DNA of 64,000 nt from Chryseobacterium sp. (lineage in GTDB: Bacteria; Bacteroidota; Bacteroidia; Flavobacteriales; Weeksellaceae): assembly GCA_031286615.1 (NCBI GenBank), contig JAITUA010000020.1, positions 663,287-727,286 of the forward strand, read 5' to 3'. The position numbers and the translations under genes were made by a program. Under the pieces are notes generated by a model that saw only the letters and a program-made list of their open reading frames with translations, did not search any database and was not told the origin of the DNA. Below are positions 11,989 to 51,621 of the stretch, piece after piece (position 1 is the stretch's first letter; every line of letters starts with the position of its first letter).

Positions 11989-13047
11989 ATGAAAAGACTT
12001 TTCCTATCCATAAGCCTTTTAGTTTTATCAAAATTTTCTGCCCAGACTTGGGCAACCGAAGATCAGTATATTCAGAAGTTTGCTAAATATGCCGTAGAAG
12101 AAATGGAAAAATATAAAATTCCGGCTTCTATTACGCTTGCACAAGGGCTGTTAGAAACCGGAGGTGGGCAAAGCAGATTAGCACAGGAAGGTAAAAACCA
12201 CTTCGGTATAAAATGTAAAGAAGACTGGACCGGTAGAACGATGAAACATACCGATGATGCGCCTAATGAATGCTTCCGTGTGTATGACGATCCAAGACAG
12301 TCTTATGAAGACCATTCTATATTTTTATCCACAAGAAAATATTACGCAAACCTTTTCAAACTGGATATGAGGGATTACAGAGCATGGGCAACAGGTTTAA
12401 AAAAAGCAGGCTATGCTACCAATCCACGTTATGCTTCAATTCTTATCACCAAAATTGAAAAGTACAAGCTATATGAATTCGACAATACCAGCTCTAATGA
12501 GGTAATGTATGCCGTACTTAAAATGTATCCGGATCTGAAAGACGACAGAACTTTCATGGCACAGCTGGAGCCTTCAAAAGCAGTTAAAAAAGCTAAAGAC
12601 CCGGTTACTGTAGAAGTTCCTTACAAACAGACTTCTTACGCACAACAGCAAAAAAGAGTGGAAAGAATCAAAACGAAAGCTGAAATTCTTAATTCCATTC
12701 TTATCAAAAGCCACCCGAACGACGGCCTGAAATATATCGTAATTCCTGAAGATACTGATGTGAAATTCATTGCCAATAAATTCAAAGTCAGCGAAAGCAG
12801 ACTGATAAAGTGGAATGAACTGGAGGGTGAAACCTTAAAGAAAAATGATATTGTTTTCCTTGAATCAAAAAATTCTACAGGAAATACAGCTACTTATAAA
12901 GCAGAATCCGGAGAAGATATGCATGACATCGCTCAGAAATTCGGAATCAAATTAAATAAACTTTACGCTAAAAACAGAATGGATGAAGGACAACAGCCAT
13001 CTGCAGGACAGCTTATTTATTTAATAGACAAAAAACCACGAAACTAA
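11989..13047 (+). CDS. GH73 N-acetylglucosaminidase with LysM repeats
   Basis: 352 residues. The signal peptide ends near KFSA/QTWA. A GH73 (mannosyl-glycoprotein endo-beta-N-acetylglucosaminidase, FlgJ-like) domain covers about 25-165: the catalytic Glu is in QGLLETGGGQS (Glu 56), and the family features NHFGIKC, FRVYDDPRQSYEDH and WATGLKKAGYATNPRYA are all present. Two LysM modules follow (about 245-290, IVIPEDTDVKFIANKFKVSE; and about 300-348, ESGEDMHDIAQKFGIK), which bind peptidoglycan. It should cut glycan strands in the periplasm during growth or septation. hemL follows 74 bases downstream; that gap holds a CAAC/GCCAAC-rich simple sequence. Confidence 0.92.
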   Translation: MKRLFLSISLLVLSKFSAQTWATEDQYIQKFAKYAVEEMEKYKIPASITLAQGLLETGGGQSRLAQEGKNHFGIKCKEDWTGRTMKHTDDAPNECFRVYDDPRQSYEDHSIFLSTRKYYANLFKLDMRDYRAWATGLKKAGYATNPRYASILITKIEKYKLYEFDNTSSNEVMYAVLKMYPDLKDDRTFMAQLEPSKAVKKAKDPVTVEVPYKQTSYAQQQKRVERIKTKAEILNSILIKSHPNDGLKYIVIPEDTDVKFIANKFKVSESRLIKWNELEGETLKKNDIVFLESKNSTGNTATYKAESGEDMHDIAQKFGIKLNKLYAKNRMDEGQQPSAGQLIYLIDKKPRN

Positions 13048-48031: not shown

Positions 48032-49030
48032 TTAACCTTCTTTATTTTCTTCCAGCCAGCCCATCTCTTTCATCCATTCGTCATTGTAGATTTTTCCTAC
48101 ATATCTTGAACCATGGTCATGAAGTAAAACGACTATCACATCATCTTTAGTGAACTGATCTTTCATCTGAATTAAAGAAGCAATGGCACTTCCTGCAGAA
48201 TATCCACAGAAAATTCCTTCTTCTTTAGCCAGTTTTCTTGCGTAGATGGCACCATCTTTATCCGTTACTTTTTCAAAATGATCAATCACAGACATATCAT
48301 AATTCTCAGGAATGATATCTTCCCCGATACCTTCTGTAATATAGGTATAAGCGTGGTCGTAGTGTAACTCTCCGGTTTCATGGAATTCTTTCAGAATAGA
48401 ACCGTAGGTATCCACACCAATTACCTTGATGTTTGGATTTTTCTCTTTGAAGAAAGTTCCGCAACCTGTGATGGTACCTCCTGTTCCTGCTCCTACCACA
48501 AAGTGAGTAAGGTTTCCTTCAGTCTGTTCCCAGATTTCCGGAGCGGTAGACTCATAATGAGCCGCTCTGTTGGATAAGTTGTCATATTGGTTGACATACC
48601 ATCCGTTTTCCGTCTCTTTTGCCAGTCTTTTGGATACTGAATAATAAGAACGAGGGTCAGTAGGTTTTACGTCTGTAGGGCAAACAATTACTTCAGCTCC
48701 TACAGCACGAAGAATATCACACTTTTCTTTTGACTGCTTGGAATTGGTTACAAAAATACATTTGTAGCCTTTGATGATGGCTGCTAATGCCAATCCCATT
48801 CCTGTATTTCCGGAAGTACCTTCAATAATGGTTCCTCCAGGTTTTAATCTGCCGTCTTTTTCGGCATCTTCTATCATTTTAAGAGCCATTCTGTCCTTTA
48901 CTGAGTTTCCAGGATTGAAGGTCTCTACTTTTGCTAATACTAATGCCGGGAAATCTTCACCTAATACTTTGTTAAGCTTTACCAGCGGCGTGTTACCTAT
49001 AGTTTCAAGGATATTTTTTGCGTATTTCAT
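48032..49030 (-). CDS. cystathionine beta-synthase/cysteine synthase-like PLP enzyme
   Basis: 332 residues, PLP fold type II. Schiff-base Lys 45 in NPGNSVKDRMALKMI, phosphate loop TSGNTGMGLA (72-81) and GAGTGGTITGCG. The end of the protein (EGIFCGYSAGSAIASL, VVLLHDHGSRYVGKIYNDEWMKEMGWL) is the cystathionine beta-synthase form rather than CysK/CysM, which lack the SRY.GKIYND.WM tail. It has no regulatory CBS domains. It would join homocysteine and serine, or make cysteine from (acetyl)serine and sulfide. A -7 box, an inverted repeat and three DnaA boxes lie just upstream. Confidence 0.88.
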   Translation of the reverse strand: MKYAKNILETIGNTPLVKLNKVLGEDFPALVLAKVETFNPGNSVKDRMALKMIEDAEKDGRLKPGGTIIEGTSGNTGMGLALAAIIKGYKCIFVTNSKQSKEKCDILRAVGAEVIVCPTDVKPTDPRSYYSVSKRLAKETENGWYVNQYDNLSNRAAHYESTAPEIWEQTEGNLTHFVVGAGTGGTITGCGTFFKEKNPNIKVIGVDTYGSILKEFHETGELHYDHAYTYITEGIGEDIIPENYDMSVIDHFEKVTDKDGAIYARKLAKEEGIFCGYSAGSAIASLIQMKDQFTKDDVIVVLLHDHGSRYVGKIYNDEWMKEMGWLEENKEG

Positions 49031-49049
49031 AAATGTTTTATATGCGGCG

Positions 49050-49057
49050 CAAAGATA
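49050..49057 (-). promoter_or_regulatory. -7 box TATCTTTG (minus) within inverted repeat
   Basis: CAAAGATA on +, 19 bases upstream of the PLP-enzyme start. It is part of an inverted repeat: GCGCAAAGATAA (49047-49058) pairs with TTATCTGCGC (49070-49079) with a 2-base bulge. The repeat ends where the first DnaA box begins. Confidence 0.5.
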
Positions 49058-49079
49058 AGGCTTTTAAAATTATCTGCGC

Positions 49080-49110
49080 TGTGGATAACGTGTGGATAAG
49101 TTGTGGATAA
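49080..49110. promoter_or_regulatory. three perfect DnaA boxes at 11-bp spacing
   Basis: TGTGGATAA (reverse complement of the consensus DnaA box TTATCCACA) starts at 49080, 49091 and 49102, all in the same orientation and exactly one helical turn apart. AT-rich CAATTAT repeats begin 34 bases to the right. The arrangement resembles an origin (box array plus unwinding region) or a DnaA-controlled promoter. Confidence 0.7.
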
Positions 49111-49144
49111 AATCAAAAACCCCTGAAAGACAACGAATAACTTT

Positions 49145-49190
49145 CAATTATCAATTATCAATTATCAATTATCAATTATCAATTATCAAT
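49145..49190. repeat. CAATTAT x6 AT-rich tandem repeat
   Basis: Six perfect CAATTAT copies plus a partial seventh, ending at the stop codon of the permease gene. Only one C per 7 bases, so it melts easily. It may be the unwinding region of the adjacent DnaA-box cluster, or only a microsatellite like GAATTAT x5 at 10723. Confidence 0.88.
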
Positions 49191-50420
49191 TTAGTTATAC
49201 TTAATAACTTTCACAGGTGAGATCTTGCTGATCAGGTAACTCGGAATAATTAAAGCTAATCCTGAAATAAGAAGAATTCCCAATGAGATAGAAATAATTG
49301 CGATAGGATTAAGGTCTACCGGAACCGTACTTACATAATAGTTTTCCGGGTTAAGCTTTATGAGTCCAAAGAATTTCTGGATCAGAATAAGTCCCAATCC
49401 GATAGCATTTCCATACAAAAGTCCCGGAATCATAATAATCAGGGTATAATTGATGAAGGTAGCTCTTATCTGTGAATTGCTTGCTCCTAATGTTTTAAGA
49501 AGACCAATAGAATTGGTTCTTTCAATAATAAGAATCAGAAGAACCATAATGATATTAATAACCACTACAATCAGCATGATGATGATGATCAATGCGATAT
49601 TGGTATCAAAAATACTGATCCAGTCAGTGATCTGCGGGAATTTTTCAGTAGCTTTTTCAGCGTAGTTTTTATAGCCGATTAGTTTTTCAATTTCAGGAAA
49701 ATCCTTGTCGATATCGTTTACATTTTTCAGAAAGATATCTACTCCGCCAATTTCATCAGGTTTCATATCCTGAATTTTTCTGGCATGATTGATTCCTCCT
49801 ATAACAAACTGTTCGTCAATTAACTTAATGTCAGTTCTGTAGATTCCTATAATCTTGAATTTACGGTAAAGTGGTTTTTGATCAGCCTTTAAAAATACCG
49901 TAACAATACTGTCATTTATCTTAAGGTGAAGGTCATTGGCTACTTTCTGCGAAATGGCAACGTCATTGTTGAAGCCTTTCTCAGTAACTTTCGGAGTAGT
50001 ACCGGCGATAAGGAATTTTTTAAATCTTAAACTGTCAAAATCTTTACCTATTCCTTTAAATATGATTCCCGCAAAGTTATGCTCATTACGCATGATTCCG
50101 GTAACCATCACATATTTTTGAGTACTTTCCACATCGGGAAGTTCTTTTATTTTTGCAATATTGAGTCCCTGATTATCAAGTACGGAAGTATTATAAGAGG
50201 AATTGGAACGCGTTGATCTTACGGTAATATGTCCGCTGAAATCTGCCAGCCTCTCTTTGATAGCTTTTTTTGAACCAAAACCGGTGGCCACAGTAATTAA
50301 GGAAACAATAATCCCCAATGCTACGGAAAGCCTGCCAATGAAGATGATAACCCTTGAAAGGTTATTTTTGTTATCTTTGGAAAATGCTATTTTTCTAGAG
50401 AAATATAAAGGAAATTTCAA
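49191..50420 (-). CDS. LolE/FtsX-type ABC transporter permease
   Basis: About 409 residues if translation starts at the TTG at 50420 (start LKFPLYFSRKIAF, the usual N-terminus of this family). An ATG at 50489 is also in frame but would overlap the divergent gene and add atypical sequence. MacB_PCD-like periplasmic domain (about 60-260) lies between the first membrane helix (VIIFIGRLSVALGIIVSLITV) and three C-terminal helices with the FtsX core (ERTNSIGLLKTLGASNSQIRATFI). LolE/LolC homologues extract lipoproteins from the inner membrane. The ATPase is not in this window. A TAATTTTG box (minus) lies at 50439-50446, supporting the TTG start. Confidence 0.83.
   Translation of the reverse strand: MKFPLYFSRKIAFSKDNKNNLSRVIIFIGRLSVALGIIVSLITVATGFGSKKAIKERLADFSGHITVRSTRSNSSYNTSVLDNQGLNIAKIKELPDVESTQKYVMVTGIMRNEHNFAGIIFKGIGKDFDSLRFKKFLIAGTTPKVTEKGFNNDVAISQKVANDLHLKINDSIVTVFLKADQKPLYRKFKIIGIYRTDIKLIDEQFVIGGINHARKIQDMKPDEIGGVDIFLKNVNDIDKDFPEIEKLIGYKNYAEKATEKFPQITDWISIFDTNIALIIIIMLIVVVINIIMVLLILIIERTNSIGLLKTLGASNSQIRATFINYTLIIMIPGLLYGNAIGLGLILIQKFFGLIKLNPENYYVSTVPVDLNPIAIISISLGILLISGLALIIPSYLISKISPVKVIKYN
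50363..50379 (+). promoter_or_regulatory. two overlapping-gene -7 boxes for the NamZ-like gene
   Basis: TATTTTTG (50363-50370) and TATCTTTG (50372-50379) both fit TAnnTTTG and precede the ATG at 50425. They lie inside the coding sequence of the divergent permease gene. Confidence 0.4.
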
Positions 50421-50424
50421 GCTT

Positions 50425-51621
50425 ATGAATTTAGATTTCAAAATTAAAAATTTACTTCTGATTTGCCTAATTTTTTTAGGAGTATTCAATCAATATTATT
50501 CTCAGACTCAAGTTCAATCGGATTTTAAAACCGGGGCAGACCAGCCTGAAATGTATTTACCCCTTTTAAAAGATAAGACAATAGGGGTAGTAACCAACCA
50601 AACAGGTTTGATGAGTGACAAAACTCATCTGGTAGATTTTCTGGTAAAAAACGGAATAAAGATCAAGTCGATTTTTGCTCCGGAACATGGTTTCAGAGGA
50701 GACGCTGACGCAGGTGCAAAAGTGAAAAACGGAGTAGATATAAAAACAGGAATCCCGATTGTTTCCCTATATGGAAATAATAAAAAACCAAAGCCGGAAC
50801 AGTTGGCAGGAATTGATATTGTTATATTTGATATCCAGGATGTGGGGGTGAGATTCTACACTTATATTTCCACTCTGTCTTATCTGATGGAAGCAGGTGC
50901 TGAAAATAACGTTGAGATCATGGTATTGGATCGTCCCAATCCGCATGACGGATATACTGACGGTCCTGTATTGAGAAAAAAATGGGCCAGTTTTGTAGGA
51001 ATGCATGAAGTTCCTGTAGTTTACGGACTCACAATAGGAGAGTATGGAAAGATGGTGAATGGAGAAAAGTGGCTGAAAAATGGAGCTCAGGCAAAATATA
51101 CACTTATTCAGATGAAGAATTATCATAAAAAGCAACGTTATCCGATGCTTGATAAACCTTCTCCGAATTTACCTAATGATAAAGCAATCAATCTATATCC
51201 AAGTCTGTGTTTTTTTGAAGGAACTCAGGTTTCTGTAGGAAGAGGAACAGATCTTCCTTTTCAGATTTATGGTTCTCCATGGACGGAAAATCTTCCTTAT
51301 CAGTTTACGCCAAAGCCAAGTTATGGTGCTAAAGATCCATTCCTGAACGGAAAACTGTGTTATGGTGAAAACCTTTCAGAATATCCTAAAGACCTAAGAG
51401 AACTCAACCTTGAATGGGTAATCAAAGCTTATCAGAATTATAAAAATCCACAGCAGGATTTCTTCCTTAAAAATCTTTGGTTTGATACCCTTTCCGGAAC
51501 TGATGATTTCAGAAAACAGATTATAGCCGGAAAATCAATTCAGGAAATTAAAAATTCCTGGAAAAAAGATCTGGAAAGTTTCGAAAAGATCAGAACCCGG
51601 TATGTGGTGTATGAAGATTAA
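50425..51621 (+). CDS. namZ: NamZ-like exo-beta-N-acetylmuramidase (DUF1343)
   Basis: 398 residues from the ATG at 50425; the frame is open for 74 codons upstream but that part is antisense to the permease gene. A hydrophobic segment/signal (LLLICLIFLGVFNQYYS) is followed by a DUF1343 domain: GVVTNQTGLMSDKTHLVDFL, SIFAPEHGFRGDADAGAKV, PIVSLYGNNKKPKPEQL, DIVIFDIQDVGVRFYTYISTL, VLDRPNPHDG and the late LCFFEGTQVSVGRGTDLPFQ. NamZ removes terminal N-acetylmuramic acid from peptidoglycan fragments during cell-wall recycling. It ends one base before a convergent small gene. Confidence 0.9.
   Translation: MNLDFKIKNLLLICLIFLGVFNQYYSQTQVQSDFKTGADQPEMYLPLLKDKTIGVVTNQTGLMSDKTHLVDFLVKNGIKIKSIFAPEHGFRGDADAGAKVKNGVDIKTGIPIVSLYGNNKKPKPEQLAGIDIVIFDIQDVGVRFYTYISTLSYLMEAGAENNVEIMVLDRPNPHDGYTDGPVLRKKWASFVGMHEVPVVYGLTIGEYGKMVNGEKWLKNGAQAKYTLIQMKNYHKKQRYPMLDKPSPNLPNDKAINLYPSLCFFEGTQVSVGRGTDLPFQIYGSPWTENLPYQFTPKPSYGAKDPFLNGKLCYGENLSEYPKDLRELNLEWVIKAYQNYKNPQQDFFLKNLWFDTLSGTDDFRKQIIAGKSIQEIKNSWKKDLESFEKIRTRYVVYED
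50439..50446 (-). promoter_or_regulatory. -7 box TAATTTTG (minus) of permease
   Basis: CAAAATTA on +, 18 bases upstream of the TTG at 50420. It lies inside the first codons of the divergent NamZ-like gene. Confidence 0.42.

Follow-up and report, generated by a model that had tools for sequence, protein, structure and literature searches.

In Escherichia coli, the form in which DnaA binds in vivo was described to be chiefly a dimer, on boxes lying 2 or 3 bp apart, and close matches to such double boxes occurred at 15 of the 16 bound regions, according to the portion of that report on which we draw (PMC11317965); a section of another paper adds that DnaA may activate or repress (PMC8203912). 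Here we analyse an array of three DnaA boxes in a 64,000-nucleotide stretch of a Chryseobacterium sp. genome (assembly GCA_031286615.1, contig JAITUA010000020.1, positions 663,287 to 727,286 of the forward strand), which we call the window, and compare it with these and other described box groups. The array lies upstream of a cystathionine beta-synthase-like gene. An earlier annotation of the window, referred to below as the original prediction, took it for an origin-like site and named DnaA control of the neighbouring promoter as the alternative. We propose, with a probability of about 0.6, that in part of the genus the array would serve as a DnaA-bound regulatory site of the synthase promoter.

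All three boxes are perfect, share one orientation and repeat with a period of 11 bp, leaving gaps of 2 bp; on the plus strand they read TGTGGATAA at 49080, 49091 and 49102, in exact letter match with the original prediction. About one such 9-mer had been expected by chance in the window, with which our dinucleotide shuffles agree (0.78 single boxes per window), and one more perfect box is present, at 12325. The genome-wide count that had been suggested as a check gives 86 perfect copies (41 + 45) in G000, as we label the window's own genome, versus 39 for the reversed control pattern. The triple is far beyond chance, since only about 7e-9 triples of the exact period are expected given 86 boxes, and the reversed control of the triple pattern is found in 0 of the 173 genus genomes that form our main comparison set.

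The position of the array with respect to the promoter is equally regular. As had been claimed, the site lies just upstream of the -7 box of the synthase gene, read as TATCTTTG on the minus strand at 49050-49057. In the part of the published work consulted for Bacteroidota promoters, the -7 consensus is given as TANNTTTG/TAHHTTTG, located 4-5 nt from the transcription start, and the -33 element as weak (PMC6847099). From the place of the -7 element and this published distance, transcription would start near 49045, and the box centres would fall near -39, -50 and -61. All three boxes face the same side of the helix, and their spacing from the promoter is fixed. At -33 this promoter has no TTTG. 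Between activation and repression we lean slightly towards activation, as the boxes occupy positions like those of activators, upstream of the -7 element, and the -33 TTTG is missing.

Substitutions counted on a tree of 23 loci carrying the array make the boxes look selected. In the 27 box columns there were 6 changes (0.22 per site), all of them in box 3, compared with 79 changes in 24 columns (3.3 per site) of the noncoding DNA just beyond the array, where two of the columns are gaps in the window's row, and with a mean of 2.46 changes per site at third codon positions of the synthase gene. The -7 element underwent 1 change in 8 columns, and none of the 23 loci has a gap between this element and box 1. 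Seven changes fell in the two columns of the first spacer and none in the second. The upstream part of one locus (G158) is non-homologous and produces a long branch; omitting it leaves 5 changes in the boxes and 77 beyond the array. Across the 26 arrays that were read, being the 23 found by the pattern and three collected without it (G140, G145 and G045), box 1 is perfect throughout, box 2 in 24 arrays and box 3 in 17.

The array is restricted to part of the genus. In a first comparison of 24 same-genus genomes, based on loci of about 4 kb, three perfect boxes were present in 5 and no perfect box in 19. Among the 173 genomes a triple with at most one mismatch occurs in 26, and in 23 of them at the synthase gene. 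We further read all upstream regions in the 42 genomes whose synthase matches best. Adjacent perfect boxes, two or more of them, are present in 23; two others (G140 and G145) possess a decayed array with one perfect and two one-mismatch boxes each, and 17 have neither, one of these (G154) keeping a degenerate relic of the boxes. Two genomes beyond these 42 are to be added, G051 with the array and G118 with a perfect pair, so that adjacent perfect boxes stand at the synthase gene in at least 25 of the 173 genomes; their offset to the start of the gene is 50 bases, or 49 in G075. G045, which has lost box 3, and G118 keep two boxes at this usual offset. In a second collection of 80 named loci, perfect boxes within 260 bp upstream were found in two, Chryseobacterium sp. 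GVT01B and C. culicis DSM 23031, and C. artocarpi has one-mismatch remnants upstream of the synthase gene. The comparison with relatives, which had been proposed as a check of the origin, thus speaks against it, the boxes being absent beside the same gene in the 19 and the 17 genomes mentioned above. The array stays with the synthase gene where the chromosomal place differs, as in G002 with all three boxes intact. In G158 it lies beside the synthase gene and the permease gene was not found within 1.5 kb upstream, which may be an effect of assembly.

It would be logical to suggest that DnaA binds these boxes cooperatively, as a dimer or trimer, and that the bound protein would alter transcription of the synthase gene, whose expression would then track the level or nucleotide state of DnaA. 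The DnaA of G000 has the N-terminal, ATPase and C-terminal helix-turn-helix domains (Bac_DnaA_C, 3.9e-29), and its residues 416-502 match PDB chain 1j1v at 2e-17, which we take to be domain IV of the E. coli protein, its box-binding part. The alternative offered by the original prediction gains from the conservation, from the fixed spacing and from the preference of DnaA for boxes 2-3 bp apart, while binding and regulation themselves are what we infer. Several points weigh on the other side. The 23 loci were picked by a one-mismatch pattern, which inflates conservation, and arrays collected free of the pattern change more (G140 and G145 have two changes each, G045 has lost box 3 and G154 shows the relic). 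The array is missing beside the synthase gene in many same-genus genomes, and such control must therefore be dispensable. The data do not predict the direction of the effect, and the portion of PMC11317965 used here, where it names gene classes of the E. coli regulon, lists no cystathionine synthase.

Table 1. Coordinates of the array and of the features around it in the window (predicted start, the predicted transcription start of the synthase gene)
Feature	Position	Strand	Remark
DnaA box 1, TTATCCACA, promoter-proximal	49080..49088	-	about -35 to -43 from predicted start
DnaA box 2, TTATCCACA	49091..49099	-	about -46 to -54 from predicted start
DnaA box 3, TTATCCACA	49102..49110	-	about -57 to -65 from predicted start; least conserved of the three
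-7 promoter element of the synthase gene, TATCTTTG	49050..49057	-	matches consensus TANNTTTG/TAHHTTTG
Inverted repeat, GCGCAAAGATAA / TTATCTGCGC	49047-49058 / 49070-49079		overlaps promoter, ends at box 1
CAATTAT x6 tandem	49145..49186		copy number varies between relatives
PLP-dependent cystathionine beta-synthase-like gene, presumed target	48032..49030	-	Pfam PALP 1.8e-73
LolC/E-like FtsX-family permease gene	49191..50489	-	3' end at 49191, upstream of array; 5' end as in the listed open reading frame

The array occupies a 160-bp intergenic gap with 29% GC, and both flanking genes are on the minus strand (Table 1). The synthase scores 431 bits with the NCBIfam model of cystathionine beta-synthase and 445 bits with that of cysteate synthase, both below the cut-off. 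A paralogue in the same genome reaches 546 bits as cysteate synthase, also under the curated cut-off, and because of this higher score the window gene is more likely to be a cystathionine-type enzyme, as judged from these models, than a cysteate synthase. For C. gleum, a cysteate synthase is named in the part of PMC11211663 used here.

The window's contig, C5 (727 kb), was analysed whole, and beyond the window it carries a second and denser box cluster, at C5:61,624-61,964, with six perfect and three one-mismatch boxes in both orientations; the locus (C5:61,610-61,990) is flanked by a beta-propeller-like open reading frame (ORF), having weak hits only, and a DinB-family gene. Reading the cluster in 17 genomes gave 3-8 perfect boxes within 450 bp, with 5-8 in 16 of them. 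Similar DNA occurs in 28 of the 173 genomes at E of 3e-8 or lower, a cut set after the list had been seen, and in 66 at 0.001. Those 28 comprise all 26 genomes with a read synthase-gene array together with G107 and G082, and G118 is not among the 66. Shared ancestry alone may be the cause of these matching ranges. The distance of the cluster from parS was measured in five genomes, among them G002, and always falls within 0.66-0.73 Mb. We consider the cluster a candidate datA-like locus; an alternative origin is less likely, and this latter idea was dropped, as the skew of a complete relative, G020, makes no turn there and parS is 0.66 Mb away. Close tandem perfect boxes, with 2 to 30 bp between them, are found in 103 of the 173 genomes, compared with one match for the reversed control. 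DnaA-box arrays seem to turn over in the genus, judging by four such loci in other genomes, among the matches listed, which have 3-bp gaps and other gene neighbours. Such perfect-box arrays with 3-bp gaps are at different intergenic loci, with up to ten boxes gathered within 1.2 kb in G119. G000 itself has a second tandem array (contig C22:9990-10020), where two perfect boxes are followed by TGTGGAAAA with 2-bp gaps; it is upstream of an ORF without Pfam or NCBIfam match, and one-mismatch relatives with similar flanks exist in G104 and G170.

The location of the origin was examined on C5 and in G020, a close relative with a complete chromosome of 5.008 Mb, from which 40 stretches of 20 kb were sampled and the four-fold-site skew was corrected for gene strand. 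The original prediction had suggested looking for a GC-skew minimum at the site. On C5 the raw skew is positive in 33 of 33 bins from 80 to 727 kb, and its cumulative sum climbs through 712 kb with no turn at the site; the four-fold-site skew is noisy and has no clear turn at either box cluster. In G020 the signs of 37 of the 40 stretches fit a two-arm model, chosen after the data had been seen (misfits at 250,001, 1,500,001 and 4,750,001), with turns between 3.25 and 3.375 Mb and between 1.0 and 1.125 Mb. When 395 kb around the first turn were joined, the cumulative-skew minimum fell at 3,392,410, which is 1.26 Mb from the array. Two exact parS sites, at 3,384,620 and 3,386,555, flank mnmG (Pfam GIDA); with one mismatch allowed, two more sites appear, at 3.02 and 3.09 Mb, but G020 then also has one palindromic match to the reversed control. 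The G020 array, at 2,131,843, is 1.25 Mb from parS. This distance is 1.25-1.32 Mb in four of the five genomes measured and 1.90 Mb in the fifth, G002; in G000 parS is on another contig (C16) than the array, so there the distance is unmeasurable. The skew of G002 (39 stretches) is too rearranged for a clean minimum and neither supports nor contradicts G020. The dnaA gene of G020, at 442, and the skew minimum are about 1.6 Mb apart. Skew and parS place the origin away from the array, from the dense box cluster and from dnaA.

The likely origin region of the genus is that of an AT-rich gap in G020, at about 3,379,900-3,380,800, between an rpiB-like gene, read from its translation, and pgk (Pfam). 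The gap is about 4 kb from the first parS and lies close to where the skew turns. Of all groups of one-mismatch boxes in the 395 kb, the richest overlaps this gap; it has five boxes within 484 bp, of which four are by coordinates inside the rpiB-like frame. A looser scan matched mostly runs of A/T. As to dnaA, its nearest perfect box in G020 is at 212,049, about 212 kb off, and autoregulation via perfect boxes is not evident.

What had first suggested an origin in the window, a box cluster adjoining AT-rich repeats, exists as claimed: the CAATTAT copies begin at 49145, 34 bp past the last box. Among relatives the number of copies goes from one in G020 to many in others, with no tandem in G147 and a CTATTAT unit in G016, and C5 has four 7-bp tandems with at least four perfect copies, CAATTAT among them. 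Because of this variable copy number and because it is one of four such tandems, we treat CAATTAT as an unrelated simple repeat (minisatellite). Together with the parS pair and skew turn of G020 some 1.25 Mb away, the skew of C5 that makes no turn at the array, the lack of the boxes in many same-genus genomes and the unconserved repeats, this refutes the oriC interpretation, to which we leave practically no chance. A more serious competitor, though still rather unlikely, is a DnaA reservoir or activity site for titration, similar to datA or DARS1, that would act on replication timing and have the gene beside it by accident. Such a function would agree with the distance to parS kept in four of five genomes and with the second, denser cluster present in a nearly identical set of genomes, but in G002 the array is far out of this range with its three boxes intact, three boxes are few for a reservoir, and a reservoir has no need of a fixed spacing to the -7 element.

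It is also conceivable, but improbable, that a different DNA-binding regulator uses the TTATCCACA sequence. The inverted repeat, whose second arm ends with the base directly preceding box 1, as the original prediction described, overlaps the promoter in an operator-like manner and shows better pairing within the array lineage, its four outer pairs being intact in 16 of 25 parsed array-lineage sites versus 0 of 21 parsed array-free ones; the target gene being metabolic also favours another regulator. This comparison covered 53 sites, 27 of the array lineage and 26 array-free, from which 2 and 5, respectively, were dropped as unparsable, and nine further array-free genomes among those with upstream regions read were excluded. 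Two compensated variants were seen, GCAC/GTGC in G002 and G092 and GTGC/GCAC in G016, but 9 of the 25 parsed array-lineage sites have one or more outer pairs broken, so we make no claim of covariation, and these breaks, as well as the exact DnaA consensus repeated three times at the spacing preferred by DnaA, argue against another regulator. Finally, the array could be a neutral relic of tandem duplication of a single box. The varying copy number (two boxes in G045 and G118), the decay in G140 and G145 and the degenerate G154 would fit this idea, which becomes very unlikely in view of about 15 times fewer changes per site in the boxes than in the neighbouring noncoding DNA. Control of the synthase promoter by DnaA remains the reading that we favour.

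Should DnaA bind here, Bacteroidota would have a DnaA-controlled promoter that does not belong to a replication gene. Among the papers listed by our literature searches on DnaA and origins in this group, and on DnaA regulons generally, no Bacteroidota DnaA regulon appeared in titles or abstract openings. The site makes a small and clean test case, consisting of a single promoter with natural variants that have three, two or no boxes, and the analysis helps to locate the origin of the genus. One may even speculate, and we hold it for a long shot, that part of Chryseobacterium evolved its own off-origin loci of DnaA control, comprising the promoter array and the dense cluster, as a Bacteroidota counterpart of E. 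coli datA/DARS, which would link the DnaA cycle with the metabolism of sulfur amino acids.

Bacterial oriC resembles the array in having boxes that adjoin an AT-rich repeat; unlike oriC, the array has no skew turn, no parS near it and no conserved repeats, and it belongs to part of the genus only. With datA, DARS1 and DARS2 of E. coli (PMC4585315) it shares the character of a noncoding box group off the origin, and the DARS core also has three boxes, whereas the array is attached to a promoter and does not keep its distance from the origin region in G002. The double DnaA-box sites of E. coli, for example the one upstream of purH, are, as far as the consulted portion of their description goes (PMC11317965), likewise tandem 9-mers 2 or 3 bp apart, at or near TTATCCACA and upstream of a gene. 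The array, a putative DnaA-binding site, differs from them in its three boxes, in its Bacteroidota -7 promoter and in its cystathionine/cysteine-type synthase gene.
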